A stretch of DNA of 64,000 bases. Source: Thiothrix unzii (GTDB lineage: Bacteria > Pseudomonadota > Gammaproteobacteria > Thiotrichales > Thiotrichaceae). Shown one piece after another: positions 47,853 through 62,576 of the stretch (within the stretch, counting starts at the first letter, position 1; every line of letters starts with the position of its first letter). Position numbers and translations under genes: made by a program. The notes under the pieces are model-generated. The model worked only from the letters and a program-made list of their open reading frames with translations. It had not been told where the DNA came from and searched no databases. The stretch is taken from positions 3,038,001 to 3,102,000 of the forward strand of contig NZ_CP072793.1 in assembly GCF_017901175.1 (NCBI RefSeq). Reading direction: 5' to 3'.

Positions 47853-48521
47853 CTACGACTGACCAATGCCTTTCATCAAAGCTGACAGGTTTTCTAGTGC
47901 CTTGTACTGTTCACTGGCAACCGAAAGTGCCAATGTGTGGGCAAGATGAGTATTCCAGTTGAGTGTGGCAACACAATTGCAGTCCAGAAGCCTGATAGCA
48001 CGCTCCAGTGTGGCGGGCTTGATGTACTCCAGCGTTTCGCTCATTTTGAGCAGCAAATCACCCAATGGGGAATAGGGTCTGATGGTTAAATCAGCTAGCT
48101 CCTCAATGATTTCTTCCGGCGTTTTGTGTTTGGGCTGGAACTGAATATCGTGTAACCGGGCAACGCCGCCCAGATAAGGACAAGCCTGAATTTGTTGGGC
48201 AGTAACTTTGTCCAATGTCACCACCACCAGCTTTAACGCAAGGTCGCCGTACCTGCGCATCGCAGAAAATGCGGCTTCTTGCTTTACCCAGTGCGAAGCC
48301 AGTGCTTTTTTCGAGAGCAGGATTACAACGGCATCACAGGTGCAAAGGTTTTTGAGGATTTTCTGATGCCACTCTTCACCCGTAGTGATTTCCTTACGGT
48401 CAAGAAACACGTCAAAGCTGTTTCCCCCATCATGTTGTTTTAATGCGGCATAGACTTGATCCAGAAAAGGCTTATTTGCTGGTGAGGTACTGTGGCTGAT
48501 GAAAACTTTGGGTCGGCGCAT
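47853..48521 (-). CDS. TIR-domain protein (first gene of TIR/MoxR operon)
   Basis: 222 residues from ATG 48521; the frame is open to 48587 but MRRPKVFISHSTS is the natural TIR start. The TIR domain (about 4-135) shows KVFISHSTSPANK, FDVFLDRKEITTGEEWHQKI and VILLSKKALASHWVKQEAAF, with Glu82 as the likely catalytic residue for NAD+ cleavage. A helical tail of 85 residues follows (ERAIRLLDCNCVATLNWNTHLAHTLA), perhaps an adaptor region. It starts the minus-strand operon; the intergenic region to the divergent ACT gene is 217 bases. Confidence 0.88.
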   Translation of the reverse strand: MRRPKVFISHSTSPANKPFLDQVYAALKQHDGGNSFDVFLDRKEITTGEEWHQKILKNLCTCDAVVILLSKKALASHWVKQEAAFSAMRRYGDLALKLVVVTLDKVTAQQIQACPYLGGVARLHDIQFQPKHKTPEEIIEELADLTIRPYSPLGDLLLKMSETLEYIKPATLERAIRLLDCNCVATLNWNTHLAHTLALSVASEQYKALENLSALMKGIGQS

Positions 48522-48680
48522 CCGGTTTCTTTGTGGAGGATTCGTTGTACGGATGAGATTACTTATTTCTGAGACAATTACAAGCACAAACCCCGATTAT
48601 GCTTCTCTAGAGGCTGATCTATCTCAGCGACGCAACACTGTTCGTCCCTACCCAACATCAACAACCATGACCTATACCAC

Positions 48681-50144: not shown

Positions 50145-51274
50145 AATACGTCGATGAATTCCGTGACCCCAGCAAAGCCAAAACCTTGGTAGCGGAAATC
50201 AACCGCCTCGCAGCCATTGCCCGTGGCGAACGCGAGATGCCGTTGCAAATCATGGAATTCTGCGGCGGACACACCCACACCCTGTTCAAGTACGGCATTG
50301 AGTCGATGTTGCCCGCTGACATTGAAATGGTGCACGGCCCCGGCTGCCCGGTGTGCGTATTGCCAATGGCGCGGGTGGATGATTGCGTGGCGATTGCGGA
50401 ACAACCCGGCGTAATTTTCACCACCTTTGGCGATGCGATGCGTGTTCCCGGGACGCGCAAAAGCCTGTTGCAAGCCAAAGCGGATGGCTGCGATGTGCGT
50501 ATGGTGTATTCGCCATTGGACGCGCTCACCCTTGCCCGCCAACACCCAGACCGTGAAGTGGTGTTTTTCGCGCTTGGCTTTGAAACTACCATGCCCAGCA
50601 CCGCACTGACTTTGTTGCAGGCACACCGCGAAGGGCTGAAAAACTTTTCGCTGTTCTGCAACCACATCACCACGCCTGCGACAATGCGGGCAATCCTCAC
50701 CGACCCCGATTTGCGGCTGGATGGGTTCCTTGCACCCGGACACGTCAGCATGGTGATCGGCGCGCACCCCTATGACTTCGTGACCCGCGATTACCACAAG
50801 CCGCTGGTGATTACCGGCTTTGAGCCGCTGGATATTTTGCAAGCCTTGTGGATGCTGGTGAAACAGTTTGCCGAAGGGCGTTGCGAAGTCGAAAACCAAT
50901 ATGCGCGGATTGTGCCGGAGGCGGGCAATGTCGCGGGGTTGAAAGCAATTGCCGAGGTTTACGAAACGCGGGAACACAGCGAATTTCGCGGCTTGGGCAA
51001 TATTGGTGATGCGGGAATCCAGATTCGGGAAGCGTATGCAGCTTACGATGCGGAGAAGAAGTTTAAGCTGCAAGCGACGGCGAGTACGCACGACCCCGAA
51101 CACCTCAAATGCGCGGATGTATTGCGCGGGGTGATAAAACCGTGGGATTGCCCCGCGTTTGGAAAAGCCTGTAACCCGCAAAATCCGCTAGGGGCATTGA
51201 TGGTGTCACCGGAGGGTTCGTGTGCGGCGTATTACGCTTACGGCAAGCTGGCGAAATGCAAGGAAACCGCATGA
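50141..51274 (+). CDS. hypD: Hydrogenase maturation Fe-S protein HypD
   Basis: 377 residues from ATG 50141; upstream in-frame sequence lies within hypC and is not used. Conserved motifs: MEFCGGHTHTL (Cys and His of the Fe-CN site), GPGCPVCVLP (thiol pair), and the C-terminal cysteines KCADVLRG, CPAFGKAC and GSCAAYYAYG that hold the [4Fe-4S] cluster. HypD is the scaffold where CN and CO are attached to iron. ATGA overlaps at both ends (hypC, hypE). Confidence 0.97.
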   Translation: MKYVDEFRDPSKAKTLVAEINRLAAIARGEREMPLQIMEFCGGHTHTLFKYGIESMLPADIEMVHGPGCPVCVLPMARVDDCVAIAEQPGVIFTTFGDAMRVPGTRKSLLQAKADGCDVRMVYSPLDALTLARQHPDREVVFFALGFETTMPSTALTLLQAHREGLKNFSLFCNHITTPATMRAILTDPDLRLDGFLAPGHVSMVIGAHPYDFVTRDYHKPLVITGFEPLDILQALWMLVKQFAEGRCEVENQYARIVPEAGNVAGLKAIAEVYETREHSEFRGLGNIGDAGIQIREAYAAYDAEKKFKLQATASTHDPEHLKCADVLRGVIKPWDCPAFGKACNPQNPLGALMVSPEGSCAAYYAYGKLAKCKETA

Positions 51275-52296
51275 ATCTTACCGGCACAATCACCCTCGCC
51301 CACGGCAGCGGCGGACGCGCCATGCACCAACTGGTCGATGACCTAATCCGCAGCACCTTCAGCAATCCACTGCTGGAAGAAGGCGAAGATCAAGCCCGCA
51401 TCCCACTAGCAGAATTGGTTGCGCAAGGCGACCGGCTGGCATTCACCACTGATTCTTACGTCGTTACCCCACTGGAATTCCCCGGTGGCAATATCGGCAC
51501 ACTCGCCATCAATGGCACGGTTAACGATCTGGCAGTCGGGGGCGCAATCCCGCTGTACCTGAGTTGCGGTTTCATCATCGAAGAAGGTTTGCCGCTGGAA
51601 ACCTTCGCACGTATTTTGCAAGCGATGCGCTTGGCGGCAGATGAAGCAGGTGTGCAAATCGTCACAGGTGATACCAAAGTCGTACAACGCGGCGGCGCGG
51701 ATAAGCTGTTTATCAATACCGCTGGCGTGGGCGTGATTCCCGCAGGTTTCAACCCGTCCGCTGGCGGTGCGCAAGTGGGCGATGCGGTGATCGTCAACGG
51801 CTGGTTGGGCGATCATGGCGCGGCAATCCTGAATGCGCGGGGCGATTTGGCGTTGGAGGCGGATATTGAAACCGATTGCGCTCCATTGAATGCGTTGGTG
51901 GAAGCGATGTTTGCCGCTTGCGCTGACATCCATTGCTTGCGCGATGCAACCCGTGGCGGTTTGGCGACGGTGCTGAATGAATTTGCGGAACGTTCCGGTG
52001 TCGATATTGTGCTGAAAGAAACAGCATTGCCGATTCGTACTCCGGTGCGCGGCATGTGCGAAATCCTCGGCCTTGATCCGTTGTACCTGGCGAATGAGGG
52101 CAAGCTGGTAGCGGTAGTTCCCGCAGCAGCGGCGCAAGCGGTGTTGGTAGCGATGCAACGCATCCCCGAAGGCCGTGATAGCCGCATTATCGGCGAAGTG
52201 CTGGAAGGCGACGGGCATGTGATCTTGCAAACCGCTTTCGGTGGGGAACGGATTGTTGATATGCTGCCCGGAGAGCAGTTACCGCGCATTTGCTGA
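51271..52296 (+). CDS. hypE: Hydrogenase maturation protein HypE (carbamoyl dehydratase)
   Basis: 341 residues from ATG 51271. PurM-like fold with N-terminal AHGSGGRAMHQLV and ATP-site motifs (DSYVVTPLEFPGGNIG, GDTKVVQRGGADK). The C-terminus is LPRIC, the flexible tail whose last Cys receives the carbamoyl group from HypF and is dehydrated to thiocyanate. hypF, which normally lies close by, is 8 kb downstream beyond the type I restriction locus. Confidence 0.97.
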   Translation: MNLTGTITLAHGSGGRAMHQLVDDLIRSTFSNPLLEEGEDQARIPLAELVAQGDRLAFTTDSYVVTPLEFPGGNIGTLAINGTVNDLAVGGAIPLYLSCGFIIEEGLPLETFARILQAMRLAADEAGVQIVTGDTKVVQRGGADKLFINTAGVGVIPAGFNPSAGGAQVGDAVIVNGWLGDHGAAILNARGDLALEADIETDCAPLNALVEAMFAACADIHCLRDATRGGLATVLNEFAERSGVDIVLKETALPIRTPVRGMCEILGLDPLYLANEGKLVAVVPAAAAQAVLVAMQRIPEGRDSRIIGEVLEGDGHVILQTAFGGERIVDMLPGEQLPRIC

Positions 52297-52336
52297 AGGT
52301 ATATGCACCTTAAAATTTCCGCGCAAAAGGCAAATC

Positions 52337-53989
52337 ATGGCACTAACCCCGACCAGCAAACCATCCGGCAAAGGTTTTGAAGAATCCCTGTGGGACACCG
52401 CCAATAAATTACGCGGCACGGTGGAATCTTCCGAATACAAGCACGTTATTCTCAGCCTGATTTTCCTGAAATTCGCCAGCGACAAATTCACCGAGCGTGA
52501 ACAGGAGTTGATCGACGAAGGCAAGGAAGCCTATCTTGACATGGTGGAGTTTTACACCATGAAAAACGTGTTTTACCTGCCCGAAGCTGCCCGCTGGCTT
52601 TACATCCAAACCTACGCCAAACAGCCCGATATTGCCCTCAAGATCGACACTGCGTTGGCGACGCTGGAAAAGCACAATAAGGCGTTGAAAGGCGCATTGC
52701 CGGACAATTACTTTTCGCGCCTTGGCCTCGACTCCAGCAAACTGGCTGCGTTGATCGACACCATCAGCAATATCGACACCACCCACGACAAGGAAAACGA
52801 TGTGGTCGGGCGGGTGTATGAATATTTCCTCGGCAAGTTTGCCGCATCAGAAGGCAAAGGCGGCGGCGAATTCTATACGCCCAAGTGCGTGGTCAACCTG
52901 ATTGCGGAAATGATTGAGCCGTACAAGGGCAAAATTTACGACCCGTGCTGCGGTTCGGGCGGGATGTTCGTGCAGTCGGTCAAATTTGTGCAAAGCCATC
53001 ACGGCAATCAAAAAGACATTTCGATTTACGGGCAGGAAAACACCAGCACCACCTATAAGTTGGCGAAAATGAACCTCGCCATCCGGGGCATTGCCGGGAA
53101 CTTGGGCGATGTGCCAGCCGATACCTTTTTCAAGGATCAGCATCCCGAACTCAAAGCCGATTTCATTATGGCTAACCCGCCTTTCAACCTGAAAGACTGG
53201 CGCGGTGCGGATGAACTGACCAGCGACCCACGCTGGGCAGGCTACGAAGTGCCACCCACGGGCAACGCCAACTATGCGTGGATTCTGCACATGATTGCTA
53301 AGCTCTCCGCCAACGGGATAGCGGGCTTTGTGATGGCAAATGGCTCGATGTCGACAAATACCAACTCGGAAGGCGAAATCCGCAAGAAGATTATCGAAAA
53401 CGATTTGGTCGATTGCATGATCGCATTGCCGGGGCAGTTGTTTTACACCACGCAGATTCCGGTGTGTTTGTGGTTTCTCAGCAGAAACAAGAACCCTCAC
53501 CCCAGCCCTCTCCCTGAGGGAGAGGGAGTACAGCAGTTCCGTGACCGTCGGGGTGAAACGCTGTTCATTGATGCCCGCAACAGGGGTTCGATGGTCGACC
53601 GCACCCACAAAGAATTGACCAGCGACGACATCGCCGCGATTGCCTGCACCTATCACGCTTGGCGCGGTGTAGGGGCAGACCTGCGTGTCTGCCCTTCCGC
53701 CAATTCAGGTAACTCCGGCATCACCGAAAAGAGGGCGGACACGCAGGTCCGCCCCTACATGGATATGCCAGGGTTCTGCAAATCGGCAACATTGGCAGAT
53801 ATTCGCGCCAATGACTACGTGCTGACACCGGGGCGTTATGTGGGCGCGGCGGAAATCGAAGACGACGGCATCGCGTTTGAAACCAAGATGGAAGAACTGA
53901 CGCGCACGCTTTACCTGCAAATGCAGCAGGCGGAAACGTTGGATGCGGTGATTCGCAAGAATTTGGCGGTGCTGGGGTATGGGGAATGA
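52337..53989 (+). CDS. hsdM: Type I restriction-modification methyltransferase subunit HsdM
   Basis: 550 residues from ATG 52337, 40 bases after hypE. Helical N-terminal HsdM_N domain (FEESLWDTANKLRGTVESSEYKHVILSLIFLKF), then the N6-adenine methyltransferase domain with SAM motif DPCCGSGGMFVQS (about 202) and catalytic MANPPFNLKDW (about 280). Two palindromic repeat elements are translated in frame in the C-terminal third: residues about 386-397 (PHPSPLPEGEG) and about 445-474 (VGADLRVCP...). They add roughly 40 residues without breaking the frame. HsdM methylates the target site within the M2S complex. Confidence 0.95.
   Translation: MALTPTSKPSGKGFEESLWDTANKLRGTVESSEYKHVILSLIFLKFASDKFTEREQELIDEGKEAYLDMVEFYTMKNVFYLPEAARWLYIQTYAKQPDIALKIDTALATLEKHNKALKGALPDNYFSRLGLDSSKLAALIDTISNIDTTHDKENDVVGRVYEYFLGKFAASEGKGGGEFYTPKCVVNLIAEMIEPYKGKIYDPCCGSGGMFVQSVKFVQSHHGNQKDISIYGQENTSTTYKLAKMNLAIRGIAGNLGDVPADTFFKDQHPELKADFIMANPPFNLKDWRGADELTSDPRWAGYEVPPTGNANYAWILHMIAKLSANGIAGFVMANGSMSTNTNSEGEIRKKIIENDLVDCMIALPGQLFYTTQIPVCLWFLSRNKNPHPSPLPEGEGVQQFRDRRGETLFIDARNRGSMVDRTHKELTSDDIAAIACTYHAWRGVGADLRVCPSANSGNSGITEKRADTQVRPYMDMPGFCKSATLADIRANDYVLTPGRYVGAAEIEDDGIAFETKMEELTRTLYLQMQQAETLDAVIRKNLAVLGYGE
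53493..53526. repeat. Short palindromic element in hsdM, translated as PHPSPLPEGEG
   Basis: CCCTCACCCC and CCCTCTCCCTGAGGGAGAGGG: an inner palindrome with a G/C-rich stem, related to the large repeat at 21442. It is read in frame inside hsdM. Confidence 0.8.
53669..53758. repeat. Composite palindromic element in hsdM (copy 1)
   Basis: A left hairpin unit GTAGGGGCAGAC-CTGCGT-GTCTGCCC and a right unit ending GTCCGCCCCTAC in inverted orientation, 30-base spacer. Each unit is itself a small hairpin. 90 bases, in frame. Left unit reads VGADLRVCP; right unit reads RADTQVRPY. Confidence 0.9.
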
Positions 53990-54046
53990 CCAATTTGACA
54001 GCTTAATTTTTTGTACATACAATAAATAAAAATAAGGATTTCCCAC

Positions 54047-54316
54047 ATGAACGTAACCTGTGATCCGAAAAAAGATGCACTCAATATCCGTAGCCACCAC
54101 ATTTCGTTGAATGAGGCTAAACGGATGGAGTGGGACACATTTATTGCGCGTGAAGATACTCGCTTTGCTTACGGTGAAATGCGGATGATCGGTTTCGGTT
54201 ACATTGGGATGACGTTGTACTGCCTAGTGTATGTAGAACACGATGAGGAAAACTGGCGGGCTATCAGTTTGCGAGAAGCAACCAAGAAGGAGATTAACGA
54301 TTATGCCAAAGCTTAA
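54047..54316 (+). CDS. brnT: BrnT-family toxin
   Basis: 89 residues with BrnT features: an N-terminal strand (VTCDPKKDALNIRSHHISLNEA), central RFAYGEMRMIGFGYIGMTLYCLVYVEHD, and C-terminal RAISLREATKKEINDYAKA. BrnT is a RelE/ParE-like ribonuclease toxin, here inside the type I restriction locus between hsdM and hsdS. The antitoxin gene starts 14 bases before its end. Confidence 0.88.
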   Translation: MNVTCDPKKDALNIRSHHISLNEAKRMEWDTFIAREDTRFAYGEMRMIGFGYIGMTLYCLVYVEHDEENWRAISLREATKKEINDYAKA

Positions 54317-54593
54317 AGTAGGGACTATTTTCCCAACAGACGCAGAAGATGCACAAATTCGGGCTGGGATTGCCGCTGACCCTGATACCTATGAGGTGAC
54401 AAGTGCTGAGGAATGGGCGCAGATGAAACCAGTGTCAATGCGGGGTCGCCCGAAAGCTGATGTCACGAAGGATCGAATCACAGTGCGCTTGTCTGCTGAG
54501 GTGACAGAGTATTTCAAGGCATCGGGCAAAGGTTGGCAAACTCGTATGGATCAAGTGTTACGTGAATATGTAGCGCAACATAAAGCAGCTTGA
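54303..54593 (+). CDS. brnA: BrnA-family antitoxin
   Basis: 96 residues from ATG 54303. C-terminal ribbon-helix-helix-type segment DRITVRLSAEVTEYFKASGKGWQTRMDQVLREYVAQH, matching BrnA; the N-terminal half wraps the toxin. Expected to neutralise BrnT and autorepress. No promoter of its own is obvious. Confidence 0.88.
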   Translation: MPKLKVGTIFPTDAEDAQIRAGIAADPDTYEVTSAEEWAQMKPVSMRGRPKADVTKDRITVRLSAEVTEYFKASGKGWQTRMDQVLREYVAQHKAA

Positions 54594-54607
54594 TGATGCG
54601 AAATTTA

Positions 54608-54657
54608 AAGACCACCCCCTGCCCCCTATCCCAGAGATGGAGGGGGAGCAAGAGAGC
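54608..54657. repeat. Palindromic repeat between brnA and hsdS
   Basis: CCCCCTGCCCCCTATCCC...GGAGGGGGAGCAAGAGAG, imperfect stem. Shares GAGGGGGAGCAAGAGA with the repeat at 21442-21547. Confidence 0.7.
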
Positions 54658-54699
54658 GTATGCAAATACACCCTCCCCAACATTGGAAGGTGCTGAATA

Positions 54700-56061
54700 A
54701 TGGCGAGTGAATGGCAAAAATATCGTCTTGATGATATTGCTGAAGTTATAGATTCATTGCATAAATCCCCATCTTATTCTGATCATGGTTATTCAATGGT
54801 TAGAGTAACAGATATAAGGCCAGGATTCCTAAATCTTAATAACACATTTAAAGTAACATTTAGCATCTTTGACGAATTTACTAAGAAATACAAACCTAAA
54901 AAAGGGGATATTGTTTTTAGTCGAGTTGGTTCATATGGTATTAGCAGTTATGTTTCTACTGATGAACCATTTTGCTTAGGTCAAAATACTGTTGTTATAA
55001 ATCCAAAAATAGATGAACGATTTTTATATTTAACACTTCAGTCTGCATCAGTAAGACACCAAATTGAGAGTGTAGCTGTCGGTACAACTCAGAAAACAAT
55101 TAGTTTAAAAAGCATCAAAAATCTGGAAATTCTTTGTCCAGAAGTGCAGGAACAAAAAGCCATTGCCCACATCCTCGGCTCTCTCGACGACAAAATCGAA
55201 CTCAACCGCCAGATGAATGCCACGCTGGAAGCAATGGCGCAAGCCCTGTTCAAAAGCTGGTTCGTGGACTTCGATCCAGTGATTGATAACGCGCTGGCGG
55301 CGGGGAATCCCATTCCCGACGAACTCGAAGCCAAAGCCGCCGCCCGTCAAGCCTTGGGTGATGCGCGTAAGCCACTGCCGGAGGACATCCGCTCGCTGTT
55401 CCCGAATGCGTTTGTGTTCACTGAGGAAATGGGGTGGATACCGGAGGGGTGGGAGATTCTTTCTGTGAGTGAAGCGATTACAGTAAATCCTAGTGTTCAG
55501 CTTAAGAAAGGTGAAGTTGCTCCATTTATTGATATGAAAGCATTGCCGACTTCAGGCTATGCAATTGATGATGTAAGCCGAAAAGCCTATGCAGGTGGTG
55601 CAAAATTTAAGAATAAAGATGTATTGCTTGCTCGTATTACGCCTTGTTTAGAAAATGGAAAAACGGGAGTAGTCGATTTTTTGAAGAAGGGCGAATCAGG
55701 TTTTGGCTCAACAGAGTTTATTATTCTTCGAGGACGAAATGGATTAAATATGCCCTTTGTTGCATGTTTAGCTCGTGACGATAAATTTCGCACTCACTGT
55801 ATTCAAAGCATGGTTGGTTCTTCGGGCAGACAGCGTGTTCAAAATGCTTGCTTTGACAGTTTTTATTTGTGTTTACCCAAATCCGAGAAAATCAAACAAC
55901 AGTTTCACGATTCAACCAATGGCTTCTTTGAAAAAATTACAACACTAAAAAATGAAACCAATAGTTTGACACAGCTTCGGGATACGCTGTTGCCGAAGTT
56001 GTTGTCGGGTGAGTTGCGGATTCCAGAGGCGGATGAATTGGTGGAGGAATCCGTGGCATGA
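54700..56061 (+). CDS. hsdS: Type I restriction-modification specificity subunit HsdS
   Basis: 453 residues, two target-recognition domains (about 1-150 and 235-400) each followed by a helical conserved region. The first conserved region reads EQKAIAHILGSLDDKIELNRQMNATLEAMAQALFKSWFVDFDPV; the second ends LTQLRDTLLPKLLSGELRIPEA. Both TRDs are markedly AT-rich compared with the conserved regions, a usual sign of domain shuffling. GGAAGG precedes the ATG. It sets the split DNA target of the complex. Confidence 0.95.
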   Translation: MASEWQKYRLDDIAEVIDSLHKSPSYSDHGYSMVRVTDIRPGFLNLNNTFKVTFSIFDEFTKKYKPKKGDIVFSRVGSYGISSYVSTDEPFCLGQNTVVINPKIDERFLYLTLQSASVRHQIESVAVGTTQKTISLKSIKNLEILCPEVQEQKAIAHILGSLDDKIELNRQMNATLEAMAQALFKSWFVDFDPVIDNALAAGNPIPDELEAKAAARQALGDARKPLPEDIRSLFPNAFVFTEEMGWIPEGWEILSVSEAITVNPSVQLKKGEVAPFIDMKALPTSGYAIDDVSRKAYAGGAKFKNKDVLLARITPCLENGKTGVVDFLKKGESGFGSTEFIILRGRNGLNMPFVACLARDDKFRTHCIQSMVGSSGRQRVQNACFDSFYLCLPKSEKIKQQFHDSTNGFFEKITTLKNETNSLTQLRDTLLPKLLSGELRIPEADELVEESVA

Positions 56062-56093
56062 TTCCCTATCGGTTATATGAATCGTTGTGTCGA

Positions 56094-56168
56094 AGAGGGC
56101 AGACACATAGGTCTGCCCCTACAGATGATCGTGCCGTTGTAGGGGCGAACCTGCGTGTTCGCCCTCTT
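56094..56168. repeat. Composite palindromic element between hsdS and the phosphoesterase gene (copy 2)
   Basis: Two hairpin units in the order right-then-left: AGGGCAGAC...GTCTGCCCCTAC and GTAGGGGCGAAC...GTTCGCCCTC, 16-base spacer. Same family as the in-frame copies; here outside any gene. Confidence 0.88.
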
Positions 56169-56200
56169 AATGACCCTGATTCCGAAAAGGTGGTGCTTGC

Positions 56201-56833
56201 ATGAACCTAACCTTCATCTCCGACACCCATTCCCTGCACGACCGCTTACCCGCTATCGACGCAGGCGACGTGCTGATTCACTGCGGCGATTTCACCGGGC
56301 GCGGCACATTGGACGACACGCTGAATTTCGCCGAATTCATGGCAGCGCAGCCATTCACCCACAAGATCGTGATTGCCGGAAACCACGACTGGTGCTTTGA
56401 AGACAAACGCCGCAAAATCGCCGAATACATCCTCAAAGAATACGGCCTCATTTACCTAAACGATTCCGGCATCGAAATTGACGGCGTGAAATTCTGGGGT
56501 TCGCCCATCCAGCCCGAATTCTGTGACTGGGCATTCAACCGCGAACGCGGCGCAGACATCCGCCAACACTGGGACAAAATCCCCGCCGACACTGACGTAC
56601 TGATTACCCACGGCCCCGCGTCCGGCATACTAGACTTATGCACGCATGGTGAACGGGTTGGCTGCGAAGATTTGCTACACGCCATCCAGCGCATCAAACC
56701 GCGCATCCACGCCAGCGGCCACATCCACGAGGGCTACGGCAAAAAGAAAGTCGGCAAGACCCTATTCATCAACGCTTGCCTGCTGGACGAACGTTATCAG
56801 GTGCGTAATCCGCCGATTGTGGTGAAGTTATGA
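56201..56833 (+). CDS. Calcineurin-like metallophosphoesterase in the hsd operon
   Basis: 210 residues with all metal motifs of the family: FISDTHSLHDR (Asp, His), HCGDFTGRG, AGNHDWCF, ITHGPASG and HASGHIHEGYG. Binuclear metal phosphatases of this type cleave phosphomono- or diesters, or nucleic acids. It is read with hsdR (the stop overlaps the hsdR ATG by 4 bases), so it probably acts together with the restriction system, perhaps as an accessory nuclease or phosphatase. Its role in the system is unknown. Confidence 0.9.
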   Translation: MNLTFISDTHSLHDRLPAIDAGDVLIHCGDFTGRGTLDDTLNFAEFMAAQPFTHKIVIAGNHDWCFEDKRRKIAEYILKEYGLIYLNDSGIEIDGVKFWGSPIQPEFCDWAFNRERGADIRQHWDKIPADTDVLITHGPASGILDLCTHGERVGCEDLLHAIQRIKPRIHASGHIHEGYGKKKVGKTLFINACLLDERYQVRNPPIVVKL

Positions 56834-59800
56834 GCCGTTTCACCGAAGCCAAACTGGAACAAGCCATCATCACCCTACTGGGCGAACAGGGCTACCCGCA
56901 CGTTCGCGGTGACACCCTGACCCGCACCCCGCAGGACGTGCTGCTGCAAGACGAACTCCGCGCTTACCTGCAAAACCGCTACGCGCATGAAGGCATTACC
57001 GCTGGTGAAATCGAACAGATCATCCGCCATTTGGAAGCACTGCCCGCCTCCGACCTCTACGACAGCAACAAAACCGTAATGAAGTTGGTCTGCGATGGTT
57101 TCCTGCTCAAGCGCGAAGACCGCAGCCAGAAAGACCTCTACATCCAGCTCATCGACTACAGCGATTTGGTAGGGGCAGACCTACGTGTCTGCCCTCCTTC
57201 AAACGTAACGGCACAAAGAGAAGAGGGCGCACACATAGGTGCGCCCCTACGCGAGGAAATGGCGATTGCGGAAGGTTTCCAACCTCGCTACCGTGCCAGC
57301 AAAAACCGCTACCAACTGGTCAACCAGCTCGAAATCGAAGGCTACGAAAAGCGCATTCCCGACGCGATCCTGTACATCAACGGCTTGCCGCTGGTGGTGT
57401 TCGAGTTCAAAAGCGCGGTACGTGAGGACGCCACCATCCACGATGCCTACGTGCAGCTCACCACCCGCTACCGTCGCGACATTCCCGAACTGCTCAAATA
57501 CAACGCGCTGTGCGTGATTTCCGACGGAGTAAACAGCAAGGTTGGCTCGCTATTCGCCCGCTATGAATTTTTCTACGCATGGCGCAAGGTCACGGGCGAT
57601 GAAAATCTGGCGGTGGATGGCATTTCATCGCTGCACACCCTGATACAAGGCTTATTCGACAAACGCCGTCTGCGCGATGTAATCCGCAATTTCATCTACC
57701 TGCCGGACACTTCCCGCAAAGAAGAAAAAGTGGTGTGCCGTTACCCGCAGTATTACGCCGCCACTAAGCTGTATGCCCACATCCTCACACACCGTAAACC
57801 GCACGGCGACGGCAAAGGCGGCACGTATTTCGGCGCGACGGGTTGCGGCAAGAGCTACACCATGCTGTTCCTTGCCCGCCTACTGATGCGCAGTGTGGAA
57901 CTCGCCAGCCCCACTATCGTGTTGATTACCGACCGCACCGACCTCGACGACCAGCTTTCCGGGCAGTTCGTCAAAGCCAAAAGCTACATCGGCGACGACA
58001 ATATTATCAGCGTGGAAAGCCGCACCCAGTTGCGTGAATTGCTCAAAGGGCGCACCAGCGGAGGGGTGTTCCTCACCACCATCCACAAATTCACCGAAGA
58101 CATTGAGCTACTGTCCGAGCGCAACAACATCATCTGCATTTCGGATGAGGCGCACCGCAGCCAGATTAACCTCGACCAGAAAGTCCGCGTTACCGAACAG
58201 GGTGTGAAACGCACTTTCGGTTTCGCCAAATACCTGCACGACTCGCTGCCCAACGCCACCTACGTCGGCTTCACTGGCACACCCGTGGATGCCACGCTAG
58301 AAGTCTTCGGGCGTATCGTCGACAGCTACACCATGACCGAATCGGTCAAAGACGACATCACCGTGCGCATCGTCTACGAAGGCCGCGCCGCCAAAGTCAT
58401 CCTCGACAACCAGAAACTGAAAGACATCGAAGCCTACTACCAGCAATGCGCGGAAGATGGCGCGAGCGACTACCAAATTGAGGAAAGCAAAAAAGCCTCC
58501 GCCAATATGAGCGCGATCCTCGGCGACCCCGACCGCCTCAAGGCACTCGCGGCTGATTTCGTCGCACACTACGAAAACCGGGTGGCGGAAGGCGCAACCC
58601 TCAAGGGCAAAGCCATGTTCGTGTGCAGCAAGCGCGAAATCGCCTGGGATTTCTACCAGCAAATCATCGCCCTGCGTCCCGAATGGGCAGAAGTGCGTGA
58701 ACCTGTAGGGGCAGACCTACGTGTCTGCCCTTCTTCGGAATCAGGGGATTTGGGGCAAGGGCAGACACGCAGGTCTGCCCCTACAAGAATCAATGACATA
58801 AAGCCCAGCGAACACCTAAAACTGGTGATGACACGCGGGCAAGATGACCCCAAAGCCCTGTACGACCTGTTGGGAACCAAGGAATACCGCAAGGAACTCG
58901 ACCGCCAGTTCAAGGAAGCCAAGTCCAATTTCAAAATCGCCATCGTGGTGGATATGTGGCTGACTGGCTTTGACGTGCCGGAACTGGACACGATCTACAT
59001 CGACAAACCGATCCAGCGGCACAGCCTGATCCAGACCATTTCCCGCGTCAACCGCACCATTGCAGGCAAAAACAAGGGGCTGGTGGTCGATTACATCGGC
59101 ATCAAACGCCAAATGAACGAAGCCCTCAAGCAGTATTCCAAAGGTGACGAAGACAACTTTGAGGAAATCCAGCAATCCATTATCGCCGTCAAAGACCAAT
59201 TGGATTTACTGGATAAATTGTTTTATCCATTTTTTCAATCAGACACCGAAAAAGGGCAGACACACAGGTCTGCCCCTACGAGGAATGGCGGTTCTATTGT
59301 AGGGGCGCACCTACGTGTGCGCCCTGATTTCACAAGATATTTCTACAGCACGCCTGTTGAACAATTGACGTACCTGAATCTTGCCGCCGAATTCGTGCAG
59401 CTCACCCAAAAGCTCGAACAGCGTTTCATGGGGCTGGTGAAACGCCTCAAGGCCGCTTACGACATCTGTTCCGGCAGCGACGCTTTCACCCAAAGCGACC
59501 GCGACCGCATCCACTTCTACTTGGCAGTGCGCTCCATTGTCTTCAAGCTCACCCGTGGCAACGCCCCGGATACCGCGCAAATGAACGCCAAAGTACGCGA
59601 AATGATCAAAGACGCGCTGCAAAGCGATGGCGTGGAAGAAATCTTTAAGCTGGGCGAAGATGCTACCGCTGAGGTGGATTTATTCTCGGACGACTACCTC
59701 GCCAAGATCGACAAGATCAAATTGCCCAACACCAAAATCAAACTGCTGCAACAGCTACTCGAACGCGCCATTGCCGAATTCAAGAAGACCAACCGCGCCA

Positions 59801-60258
59801 AGGGCGTGGACTTCTCCAAACAGTTCAAAGCACTGGTTGACCGCTACAACGAGCGCGACGAACAAAATGTGCTGGTCAGCAACGTGCTGGATGACTTCGC
59901 CAATGAAATCATCGACCTGTTCCACGCCCTGCAACGCGAAAAGGCATCTTTCGCTGATCTCGGCATCGACTTTGAGGAAAAGGCATTCTACGACATCCTC
60001 AAGGGGCTGGCGGTCAAATACGACTTCACTTACCCGGAAGCGAAGCTGCTGACCCTCGCCCAAGCCGTGAAAGCGGTGGTCGATGACAAAAGCAAATACA
60101 CCGACTGGAACCAGCGCGAAGACATTAAGGCAGAACTGAAAGTTGACTTGATTATGCTGTTGGCTAAATACGGCTACCCGCCAGTCGATCGCGACGAGGT
60201 TTACAAGGAAATCTTTGCGCAGGCGGAAAACTTCAAGCAATACCGGAATTCAGCATGA
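56830..60258 (+). CDS. hsdR: Type I restriction endonuclease subunit HsdR
   Basis: 1142 residues. N-terminal PD-(D/E)xK nuclease (IPDAILYINGLPLVVFEFKSA, about 180-195), then SF2 translocase with Walker A FGATGCGKSYT (about 336) and DEAH (about 438), and motif VI region LIQTISRVNRTIAGK. The helical C-terminal domain binds HsdM. Three palindromic elements are translated within it: about residues 114-140, 626-652 and 808-832, each beginning or ending with VGADLRVCP/VGAHLRVRP. They fall in likely loops, outside the named motifs, and all keep the frame. The stop overlaps the hypF start. Confidence 0.95.
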   Translation: MSRFTEAKLEQAIITLLGEQGYPHVRGDTLTRTPQDVLLQDELRAYLQNRYAHEGITAGEIEQIIRHLEALPASDLYDSNKTVMKLVCDGFLLKREDRSQKDLYIQLIDYSDLVGADLRVCPPSNVTAQREEGAHIGAPLREEMAIAEGFQPRYRASKNRYQLVNQLEIEGYEKRIPDAILYINGLPLVVFEFKSAVREDATIHDAYVQLTTRYRRDIPELLKYNALCVISDGVNSKVGSLFARYEFFYAWRKVTGDENLAVDGISSLHTLIQGLFDKRRLRDVIRNFIYLPDTSRKEEKVVCRYPQYYAATKLYAHILTHRKPHGDGKGGTYFGATGCGKSYTMLFLARLLMRSVELASPTIVLITDRTDLDDQLSGQFVKAKSYIGDDNIISVESRTQLRELLKGRTSGGVFLTTIHKFTEDIELLSERNNIICISDEAHRSQINLDQKVRVTEQGVKRTFGFAKYLHDSLPNATYVGFTGTPVDATLEVFGRIVDSYTMTESVKDDITVRIVYEGRAAKVILDNQKLKDIEAYYQQCAEDGASDYQIEESKKASANMSAILGDPDRLKALAADFVAHYENRVAEGATLKGKAMFVCSKREIAWDFYQQIIALRPEWAEVREPVGADLRVCPSSESGDLGQGQTRRSAPTRINDIKPSEHLKLVMTRGQDDPKALYDLLGTKEYRKELDRQFKEAKSNFKIAIVVDMWLTGFDVPELDTIYIDKPIQRHSLIQTISRVNRTIAGKNKGLVVDYIGIKRQMNEALKQYSKGDEDNFEEIQQSIIAVKDQLDLLDKLFYPFFQSDTEKGQTHRSAPTRNGGSIVGAHLRVRPDFTRYFYSTPVEQLTYLNLAAEFVQLTQKLEQRFMGLVKRLKAAYDICSGSDAFTQSDRDRIHFYLAVRSIVFKLTRGNAPDTAQMNAKVREMIKDALQSDGVEEIFKLGEDATAEVDLFSDDYLAKIDKIKLPNTKIKLLQQLLERAIAEFKKTNRAKGVDFSKQFKALVDRYNERDEQNVLVSNVLDDFANEIIDLFHALQREKASFADLGIDFEEKAFYDILKGLAVKYDFTYPEAKLLTLAQAVKAVVDDKSKYTDWNQREDIKAELKVDLIMLLAKYGYPPVDRDEVYKEIFAQAENFKQYRNSA
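57169..57250. repeat. Composite palindromic element in hsdR (copy 3)
   Basis: GTAGGGGCAGAC-CTACGT-GTCTGCCC, spacer, then AGGGCGCAC...GTGCGCCCCTAC. 82 bases; left unit reads VGADLRVCP, right unit EGAHIGAPL. Confidence 0.9.
58705..58784. repeat. Composite palindromic element in hsdR (copy 4)
   Basis: GTAGGGGCAGAC-CTACGT-GTCTGCCC and AGGGCAGAC...GTCTGCCCCTAC, 80 bases; left unit reads VGADLRVCP, right unit GQTRRSAPT. Confidence 0.9.
59253..59325. repeat. Composite palindromic element in hsdR (copy 5)
   Basis: Units in right-then-left order as at 56094: AGGGCAGAC...GTCTGCCCCTAC then GTAGGGGCGCAC...GTGCGCCCT. Reads GQTHRSAPT then VGAHLRVRP, in frame. Confidence 0.9.
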
Positions 60259-62576
60259 TGACCGCCCAACGCATTCGCATCACCGGCCTAGTCCAAGGTG
60301 TCGGCTTTCGCCCCAACGTCTGGCGGCTGGCGCAGGCTTGCCATATCGCCGGAACTGTGCGCAATGACAGCAGCGGCGTATTGATCGAAGCGTGGGGCAG
60401 TGAATCTGCACTGGCAGCTTTTCAACAGCAATTACGCACCGATATTCCACCACTGGCGCACATTGAACGGCTCCAGATTACCGCGCTGGAAGCCGCTTGC
60501 CCGCATCACGATTTCCGCATTATTGCCAGTGAGTCCGGTGAAATTCACACCGGTATCGTCGCGGATGCGGCGACGTGTGCCGCTTGCCGTGCGGATATTT
60601 TCGACGTAAACAATCGCCGTTACCGTTACCCATTTACCAATTGCACCCATTGCGGGCCGCGTTTGAGCATTGTGCGCACCATTCCCTATGACCGTGCGAA
60701 TACCAGCATGGCGGGGTTTGCGCAATGTCCCGACTGTTTGCGCGAATACACCGACCCCGCTGACCGGCGGTTTCATGCGCAACCGAATGCGTGTCCGACG
60801 TGTGGCCCCAAGGTGTGGCTAGAAGATATGGCGGGGCAAGCGATTTCAGCCGATGCTGGCGAACGCGATTGCCTTGATACCGCCCAGCGTTTATTGCGCG
60901 AAGGGCATATTCTCGCGTTAATGGGCTTGGGTGGAGTGCATTTGGTGTGTGATGCCAGCAATGCAACGGCGGTGGCAAATTTGCGGCAGCGTAAACGCCG
61001 TTATCAGAAACCGTTGGCGTTGATGGCGCGGGATTTAGCGGTGGTGCGGCAATATTGCCGGGTCAGCGAGGCAGAGGCGGCGTTGTTGCAAAGCAAATAC
61101 GCGCCGATTGTGTTGTTGGAAGCAAAGGTGTGGTTAAACGGGGTATCTTCCGTTCCCTTCCTCGGCTTCATGCTCCCCTACACGCCGCTTCATGCCTTAT
61201 TGCTCGAAACGTGGGACACGCCGCTGGTGATGACCAGTGCCAATCTCAGCGAAGAACCGCAGTGCATCACCTTGGATGAAACCCGCCAGCGGATGCAGGG
61301 CATCGCCGACTATTTGCTGTTACACAATCGCCCGATTGTTAACCGCGTGGATGATTCTGTTGCGCGGATTCTGGGCGGTAAGTCGCGCTTATTGCGGCGG
61401 GCGCGAGGTTATGCACCGGAACACATTCATTTACCGGCGGGCTTTACGGATGTGCCGCCACTGCTCGCGATGGGTGGCGAACTCAAAAACACCTTCGCAC
61501 TGGTACGCGACGGGCAAGTGATACTTTCGCAACATTTAGGCGATCTTGAGGACGCACGCACCGGGCGCGAATACACCCACACCTTGCAGCTTTACCGCGA
61601 CTTGTTTCAACACCAGCCGCAAGCGATTGTGGTCGATAAACACCCCGGCTACCGCTCCACTCAAGTGGGGCAACAATGGGCGCGGGAACAGGCTTTACCC
61701 GTGATTGAAGTGCAACATCACCACGCCCACATAGCGGCTTGCATGGCGGATAACGACTGGTCGTTAGCGGGTGGTCAAGTTTTGGGTATCGTGCTGGACG
61801 GGCTGGGTTACGGCGATGATGGCACGTTGTGGGGCGGCGAATTTTTGCTGGCAGATTACGCCAATTACCAGCGTGTCGGGCATTTCAAACCCGTTGCCAT
61901 GCCCGGTGGTACGCAAGCGATTTTGCAACCTTGGCGCAATACTTGGGCACATTTACACGCGCTCGGCTGGGACAACATAGCCGCATCGTTTGCGGATCTG
62001 GGGTTGCTGCAATTCCTGCAACAACAACCGCTGGCAACGCTGGAAACCATGCTGGCGCGTGGCTTGAATTCGCCGTTAAGCAGTTCCTGCGGGCGACTGT
62101 TTGATGCGGTAGCGGCAGCACTCGATTGCAGCCGCGCCAATATCAGCTACGAAGGGCAAGCCGCGATCGAACTCGAAGCTCTTGCCGCCGCTGCGCCCGA
62201 TAGCGTTCAACCCTATCCGTTCGCCATTGCCAAAAACGCAGCGGACTGTTGGGAAATCGACCCCGCTCCGCTCTGGTACGCGCTGCTTCATGACCTGCAA
62301 AACGGCACGCAACGCGCAACCATTGCGGCGCGTTTCCACCAAGGTTTGATCCGCGTGATTGTTGAGTTGGCGCAACGGTTGCGTGTGGAATATCCCGACA
62401 TTCAAGCGGTCGCGTTATCGGGTGGGGTGTTTCAAAATACGTTGCTGTTTAACGGGATTAATCAGCAATTGACCGACGCAGGGGTGCGGGTCTTAACACA
62501 CCAACACGTACCGACTAACGATGGCGGCATTGCGTTGGGGCAGGCGGTGATTGGCGCGGCGCGGGGTAAAGTCTGA
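60255..62576 (+). CDS. hypF: Carbamoyltransferase HypF
   Basis: 773 residues. Domains: acylphosphatase-like (RIRITGLVQGVGFRPNVWRLAQ, 1-90), two zinc fingers (CAACRADIFD...CTHC, CPDC...CPTC, about 107-180), a YrdC-like domain (about 200-375) and the Kae1-like carbamoyltransferase domain (VIEVQHHHAHIAACMADN, DGLGYGDDGTLWGGE, LSGGVFQN). HypF makes carbamoyl-AMP from carbamoyl phosphate and loads the HypE tail. Its ATG sits at the hsdR stop (ATGATGA), so it seems to be translated from the restriction operon message. Completes the hypABCDEF set. Confidence 0.97.
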   Translation: MMTAQRIRITGLVQGVGFRPNVWRLAQACHIAGTVRNDSSGVLIEAWGSESALAAFQQQLRTDIPPLAHIERLQITALEAACPHHDFRIIASESGEIHTGIVADAATCAACRADIFDVNNRRYRYPFTNCTHCGPRLSIVRTIPYDRANTSMAGFAQCPDCLREYTDPADRRFHAQPNACPTCGPKVWLEDMAGQAISADAGERDCLDTAQRLLREGHILALMGLGGVHLVCDASNATAVANLRQRKRRYQKPLALMARDLAVVRQYCRVSEAEAALLQSKYAPIVLLEAKVWLNGVSSVPFLGFMLPYTPLHALLLETWDTPLVMTSANLSEEPQCITLDETRQRMQGIADYLLLHNRPIVNRVDDSVARILGGKSRLLRRARGYAPEHIHLPAGFTDVPPLLAMGGELKNTFALVRDGQVILSQHLGDLEDARTGREYTHTLQLYRDLFQHQPQAIVVDKHPGYRSTQVGQQWAREQALPVIEVQHHHAHIAACMADNDWSLAGGQVLGIVLDGLGYGDDGTLWGGEFLLADYANYQRVGHFKPVAMPGGTQAILQPWRNTWAHLHALGWDNIAASFADLGLLQFLQQQPLATLETMLARGLNSPLSSSCGRLFDAVAAALDCSRANISYEGQAAIELEALAAAAPDSVQPYPFAIAKNAADCWEIDPAPLWYALLHDLQNGTQRATIAARFHQGLIRVIVELAQRLRVEYPDIQAVALSGGVFQNTLLFNGINQQLTDAGVRVLTHQHVPTNDGGIALGQAVIGAARGKV

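Follow-up and report, generated by a model that had tools for sequence, protein, structure and literature searches.

What brings five palindromic repeats into a single restriction operon, where four of them are translated as parts of the HsdM and HsdR subunits? The operon, of the type I restriction-modification (R-M) kind, lies in a 64-kb stretch of the Thiothrix unzii genome (the window, a term that denotes all 64,000 nucleotides analyzed), and an earlier note on this DNA had likened its repeats to the palindromic elements of Rickettsia. Classified by their sequence, they are instead GTAG-type repetitive extragenic palindromic (REP) doublets (REPINs). We consider it probable that they were moved by a transposase resembling the REP-associated tyrosine transposases (RAYTs), which recurrently settles in type I R-M operons, deposits REPs locally, and has since disappeared from the lineage of the window or acted from elsewhere.

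REP doublets of the window and of the host genome

A 26-nt hairpin unit, GTAGGGGCNNACCTNNGTGTNNGCCC, is present in 10 mismatch-free copies in the window, all within positions 53669-59324, whereas dinucleotide shuffles of the window gave a mean of 0.00 matches even at ≤3 mismatches. The units form five inverted doublets, one in hsdM, three in hsdR and one intergenic, as described in the earlier note. Their lengths, in window order, are 90, 68, 82, 80 and 71 bp, so that the range of about 73 to 90 bases given previously holds at its upper end and not at its lower end. The hsdM pair (53669-53758) was delimited by unit match and frame reading and consists of a head unit (53669-53694, + strand; VGADLRVCP) and a tail unit (53733-53758, - strand; RADTQVRPY). 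The intergenic pair (56097-56164), located by unit match between hsdS and a phosphoesterase gene, comprises units at 56097-56122 (-) and 56139-56164 (+). The hsdR pairs, supported by unit match and homologue alignment, occupy site 1 (57169-57250; units 57169-57194, +, VGADLRVCP, and 57225-57250, -, EGAHIGAPL), site 2 (58705-58784; units 58705-58730, +, VGADLRVCP, and 58759-58784, -, GQTRRSAPT) and site 3 (59254-59324; units 59254-59279, -, GQTHRSAPT, and 59299-59324, +, VGAHLRVRP). Both arrangements recognized earlier thus occur, the orientation being +,- in three pairs and -,+ in two. In 10/10 units of the window and 18/18 units of the genome, a short imperfect palindrome carries GTAG at its foot. 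Single strands of the five window pairs fold as long hairpins (DNA z scores of -3.5 to -9.9), and no Rfam family was detected in the window at the gathering threshold.

Across the 8 contigs of the host genome (3.72 Mb), 18 units were found at ≤2 mismatches, exclusively in inverted pairs (9/9). Five of these nine pairs fall within the 5.66 kb of the operon, which amounts to 0.15% of the genome, confirming the concentration that had been suspected; a crude bound on this outcome under uniform placement is ~5e-8. Of the four other pairs, three are intergenic; the fourth is read in frame within a wzt-like ABC gene (residues ~279-301), between the ABC_tran and Wzt_C domains. A search of 57 genomes, counting the host, at ≤1 mismatch detected the unit in 12, namely the host and 11 more, exclusively within the genus Thiothrix. 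The intergenic pair was recovered with matching flanks in another Thiothrix genome (G010; L134 5095-5162).

RAYT-like transposases in type I R-M operons

Profile PF01797 at an E value of 0.001 revealed no RAYT in the host genome, and NF047646 at a loose limit revealed one (C2:1090486-1091079), flanked by another REP, GTAGGGGCRACCGGCYGGTYGCCC. RAYT-type transposases, raised as a prospect in the earlier note, are thus found elsewhere in the host genome, and also in its relatives: nine were identified among 16 Thiothrix genomes, seven of which have at least one, and all nine have GTAG REPs nearby, of seven kinds altogether. The HUH motif, MPNHxH, is invariant in the six sequences aligned. Only the RAYT of L038 (202) passes the curated NF047646 cutoff of 80 bits, the other nine of the 10 scored reaching 38 to 71; most are therefore named RAYT-like here. 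Relatives of the RAYT of one Thiothrix genome, G009, were found on 4 of 72,556 plasmid records.

Three of the nine Thiothrix RAYTs lie in hsd loci. In G009, the gene order is hsdM-hsdS-Fic-RAYT-hsdR and arrays of GTAGGGGCNNACCTNNGTGTNNGCCC units flank the RAYT on both sides. The hsd operon holds 26 of the 30 units of this family in that genome (≤1 mismatch), including seven in frame in HsdM and three in HsdR; the G009 HsdM (665 aa; L132 5064-7061) has 158 residues from the first to the last of its seven units. A cognate RAYT flanked by the window unit was seen in G009 and in L171 and L172, not in the host. In G010, a RAYT of another kind adjoins an hsdM remnant that carries the REP of this RAYT in two loops; 10 of the 13 places of that REP family are around the RAYT, two of them in the hsdM remnant, and one further place is found in the truncated hsdM open reading frame (ORF) of a second system. 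The decayed hsd locus of G010 (L134, C2:3776000-3787000) retains only residues ~1-52 and 1068-1142 of hsdR and part of hsdM, and no match to hsdS was found. In G007, a RAYT of a third kind is located between hsdM and hsdS. Four of the nine Thiothrix RAYTs occupy a common site, next to an ORF judged ferredoxin-like by eye. Two others, of different families (L152 and L153; G008 and G011), adjoin a TIR/FGE-domain gene and recG (by eye for the recG of L153), a neighborhood that is possibly a second defense-linked RAYT site.

The association extends beyond the genus. A RAYT profile search of 369 genomes of the class returned 54 rows. Twenty-nine genes were followed (E ≤3e-21; 32 rows merged), with the row of the host genome set aside; the 21 rows left out (E from 4.8e-18 to 8e-11) include G203 C2:10921, near N6_Mtase and HSDR_N. 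Counting Pfam matches to N6_Mtase or HSDR_N within 2.5 kb in the same 24 genomes, 5/29 RAYTs had the former as a neighbor, 3/29 the latter and 7/29 at least one of the two, versus 0.33 expected (Poisson P of 6e-8, or 1.3e-6 if the paralogous pair L182/L187 is counted as one, in a test that ignores the clustering of defense genes and mobile DNA). Inspection raised the number to 9/29, including L169, whose similarity to hsdM was judged by eye (Pfam detected only Y1_Tnp). The gene orders included hsdS-RAYT-hsdR (L178), hsdS-x-RAYT-hsdR (L161), hsdS-RAYT-hsdM (L183) and hsdM-hsdS-x-RAYT-hsdR (L188), and a RAYT precedes hsdR in two more loci, L038 (canonical by NF047646) and L073, both among the best 80 of 463 HsdR loci. 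The RAYT is on the strand of the operon in 14/14 tabulated cases. REPs lie within 600 bp of the RAYT in 22/29 loci of this class sample, and their density drops from 0.83/kb at distances up to 1 kb to 0.038/kb farther out. In-frame GTAG palindromes were found in the HsdR of L161 and of L162, the latter split into two ORFs.

RAYTs located in hsd loci are scattered over the RAYT tree, indicating that these settings arose repeatedly. One clade groups the RAYTs of G009, L182, L183 and L171/L172 (support 0.78-0.85), with ACCTNNGTGT-type units wherever REPs were seen; at L182, there were only REP-like peptides and no REP was detected. In the RAYT-like proteins of L182, L144 and L183, the HUH motif is followed by peptides encoded by REPs (e.g., VGADLRVGPNDG...RANTQVRPY). 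The hsd operon of G131 (L188 6341-8255) displays three REP doublets of identical spacing, two intergenic and one at a RAYT fragment.

A resident transposase would be superfluous if REPs mobilized in trans hop anywhere and dispensable, loop-rich genes such as hsd are simply those that retain copies. Such survivor bias fits the host pairs located elsewhere (3/9 intergenic and one in the wzt-like gene), the exact unit accompanying RAYTs outside hsd operons (L171, L172), and the REPs reported within genes, often repair genes, of several species in passages of PMC3733652. However, the presence of 5/9 pairs in 0.15% of the genome exceeds what dispensability alone predicts, and in G009 the RAYT is in place. 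We regard this explanation as quite unlikely.

Insertion sites and reading frames

HsdR was compared with the best 80 of 463 relatives, the nearest matches including Thiothrix sp. and Candidatus Thiothrix singaporensis, and HsdM was aligned with ORFs of 49 relatives, some of them partial and one locus (L034/L151) being present twice. Visual inspection was the basis for recognizing the palindromes of L057, L061 and L064 and, in G007 and G014, the CCCTC-type inserts. Most homologues lack the inserts, indicating that the REP pairs are insertions in variable, tolerated loops, as the earlier note had supposed. Site 1 of HsdR is a variable loop at or near which L049, L061 and L068 have inserts of 10-12 residues; that of L061 (Pirellula-labelled; residues ~124-135) is an unrelated palindrome with 20/22 complementary letters. 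Site 2, which follows WAEV/I, has been targeted repeatedly. Outside the window, palindromic inserts occupy it in G009 (three copies of the window unit), in G007 (L033/L150) and G014 (CCCTC-type inverted pairs), and in the Desulfobacteraceae genome of L071 (a different GTAG pair). Site 3 has one neighbor, a 10-residue insert in L073 with no evident palindrome. In HsdM, a loop flanked by YHxWR and GFCK contains the GTAGGGGCNNACCTNNGTGTNNGCCC unit in the window and in G009. L057 and L064 have other palindromes in this loop, and the hsdM remnant of G010 has a GTAG REP of another kind there. The sixth element of the earlier note, PHPSPLPEGEG, is a real, unrelated in-frame palindrome of hsdM (53494-53528, + strand); G014 has a diverged copy in the corresponding position, indicating that the element is older than the REP pairs.

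The relationships of these proteins bear on the origin of the inserts. The window HsdR groups with that of G002 (91% identical, support 0.69), which is insert-free, and G009 falls outside this group, so that the site-2 insertions of the same unit in the window and in G009 are most likely parallel. For hsdM, the insert boundaries are equal in the window and G009, and a 40-column stretch (window residues 441-503) has a match of 0.82 to G009 versus 0.72 to G014 or G005; together, these observations suggest that a shared origin by recombination is possible. The same local similarity would be expected if the operon, or an hsdM segment, had come with its repeats in place from a donor rich in REPs, in which case their concentration would reflect foreign DNA and not local deposition. 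Type I systems move often. This transfer is nonetheless unlikely in our judgment, since the operon lies beside hypF both in the window and in G014 (where hsdR adjoins hypF), the decayed locus of G010 lies, as in the window, between hypE and hypF, the window and G010 have the intergenic pair in common, and HsdR is closer to insert-free G002 and to G014 (89%) than to G009 (72%).

The in-gene copies leave the ORFs of hsdM (550 aa) and hsdR (1142 aa) open, in agreement with the earlier note. HsdM contains the motifs DPCCGSGG and NPPF, and HsdR contains EFKSA, GATGCGKS, DEAHR and QTISRVNR, all of them catalytic motifs. The ratio of nonsynonymous to synonymous substitution rates (dN/dS) of hsdR, 0.14 for the window-G002 pair and not branch-specific, indicates that this gene is under purifying selection. 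Open frames, catalytic motifs and this ratio rule out that hsdM and hsdR are dead genes, a possibility that had been raised at the outset.

In a tally of 20 units from five genes and two genomes, head units were read in one frame (VGADLRVCP-like) in 10/10 cases and tail units in all three, which upholds the asymmetry between left and right units proposed on fewer copies. The constancy of the head is partly forced, because one of its three frames meets the stop codon TAG within GTAG. The third frame is open and yet unused in 10/10 head units, several of which are tandem copies, so that the tally lends little weight to a preference. Tails of the RADTQVRPY/RANTQVRPY type have CAG (Gln) at the loop in 6/6 cases; a CTA loop would place a stop codon there. 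Not every in-gene pair (90, 82, 80 and 71 bp) has a length divisible by three, and the frames survive because flanking loop codons changed too. Between the two units of hsdR site 1 lies a very short, native-like TAQR motif, which suggests that the units may bracket host codons.

Could the inserts have been selected for a role of their own, with peptides or mRNA hairpins tuning HsdM and HsdR, for instance by slower translation of the nuclease subunit? As RNA, the four in-gene pairs fold into hairpins with energies of -44 to -66 kcal/mol (z scores of -5.5 to -10.6), and several lineages used the same loops. Yet the peptides differ from site to site, with tails in three frames; the HsdR of G002, G005 and G014 lacks GTAG inserts; and the inserts are predicted to be unstructured. 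In the HsdM model, the insert region (residues 447-470) has a predicted local distance difference test (pLDDT) score below 50 and no secondary structure. The HsdR inserts (114-155, 623-660 and 804-832) are mostly coil with pLDDT below 50, in a model that is itself poor (mean pLDDT of 58.6, with 428/1142 residues below 50), so that low values at the inserts say little. The loops presumably lie at the protein surface. No evidence for a protein-level role of the inserts was found, and a selected role appears very improbable. The earlier suggestion of an active element or a protein-level role thus finds no backing in its second part, and in its first part is doubtful for the host, whose RAYT has a different REP. 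On our analysis, a resident RAYT in the operon, as in G009, would better explain the concentration than a protein-level role.

Origin of the repeats, surroundings and known systems

According to the mechanism that we favor, a RAYT-like transposase of the IS200 class would mobilize GTAG REP doublets, and type I R-M operons would be a place where RAYT genes settle time and again. REPs would be deposited mostly within a few kilobases of the RAYT, leading hsdM and hsdR to collect copies. Continued selection on HsdM and HsdR would spare those copies that lie in surface loops and preserve an open frame. The five pairs of the window would now be orphans, their transposase having later been lost from this lineage or having acted from another place.

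Several observations weigh against this account, in addition to the limits of the Poisson test and of the HsdR model given above. The host yielded a single RAYT, which lies 2 Mb from the window and is flanked by a different REP, making activity of the window repeats in this genome doubtful. No RAYT remnant was recognized in the window with 38 queries, the hits at E ≤0.05 being weak and the best of them matching REP-coded peptides. Among the RAYTs surveyed, 20/29 have no hsd neighbor, including those of L171 and L172 with the exact window unit, and no REP was detected near the RAYTs of the hsd operons of L178, L182 and L187. The three doublets of G131 are in no ORF of at least 90 aa, the REP family is dispersed in the genome of G011 (among the matches listed, which include none from G001 or G010), and GTAG REPs show no general enrichment in hsdR outside RAYT-bearing operons, only 3 of the 80 best of 463 hsdR loci holding one, in one case inside hsdR. 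We infer, and do not observe, that a RAYT moved the window copies and that deposition was local; given the missing RAYT trace in the window and the different REP of the host RAYT, its former residence in the operon is likewise an inference.

RAYTs are puzzling, usually single-copy, rarely horizontal transposases with no known benefit to the host. Recurrent homes in type I R-M operons would offer a concrete place to seek such a benefit or, alternatively, hitchhiking on an addictive locus. A tentative and rather unlikely extension is that RAYT-REP modules are regular tenants of these operons, often just upstream of hsdR, whose addictive, horizontally mobile character would maintain a single-strand transposase that rewrites HsdM and HsdR loops by means of palindromic peptides and hairpins, in a standing partnership or parasitism. 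The locus also suggests a route from palindromic DNA to protein sequence, by a resident transposase beside genes with loops tolerating ~20 to ~150 extra residues, and the insertion sites mark permissive HsdM and HsdR loops usable for tags or fusions.

The names of the operon genes, all on the + strand, rest on Pfam matches. Intact hsdM (52337-53989; N6_Mtase, HsdM_N; ATG at 52337) is followed by a BrnA-type antitoxin gene (54243-54593), hsdS (54700-56061; Methylase_S, 453 aa), a calcineurin-like phosphoesterase gene (56201-56833) and intact hsdR (56830-60258; HSDR_N, SWI2_SNF2, T1R_D3-like, T1RH-like_C). The operon interrupts hydrogenase maturation genes (51220-62576): upstream of it are hypD and a hypE-like gene with an AIRS domain, and hypF lies downstream. 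A TIR-domain protein gene (47853-48587, - strand) lies ~4 kb upstream of hsdM.

Type I R-M operons contain cargo genes, of which RhuM-like is one; RAYTs are single-strand transposases. The RAYTs described here resemble cargo genes, represented in these operons by Fic and BrnA, in being accessory codirectional ORFs between hsdM, hsdS and hsdR, but differ from them in that their REPs lie in neighboring genes.

Rickettsia palindromic elements are translated in frame at tolerated places and, like the window repeats, are palindromes inside protein genes. The tag of the window units is GTAG (10/10), not CGTC, and RAYTs exist here; the tag and the RAYT link rule out the Rickettsia elements. In the parts of PMC3733652 consulted, these elements are likewise described as palindromes inside protein genes, RPE-4 and RPE-6 are classed under CGTC repeats, and CGTC repeats are not associated with transposase genes.

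The literature searched, which most subscription papers and bioRxiv preprints lay beyond, yielded no account of a RAYT within a type I R-M operon. Neither hsd nor restriction was matched in the main text of PMC3733652, and a term search for restriction found nothing in the accessible text of PMC2817692, PMC3116915 and PMC6006769; PMC3390384 and PMC7606416 mention both RAYTs and restriction-modification, in passages that do not link them. REPs within genes are already known, and the part worth following is the association of RAYTs with hsd operons. The window repeats share with GTAG REPs and REPINs, as characterized in portions of PMC3733652, PMC3116915, PMC2817692 and PMC3390384, the GTAG foot, the short hairpin, the inverted doublets, and some in-gene copies. 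An IS200-class RAYT flanked by its unit, a further trait of those REPs, was seen with the window unit in G009, L171 and L172, and the one RAYT found in the host is flanked by another REP. With 18 units, the host falls short of the copy number usual for REPs, >100 per genome according to PMC2817692. Unlike these REPs, the copies here are few and concentrated in one operon, in-gene copies are mostly in hsd genes, and several of the RAYTs lie inside type I R-M operons.

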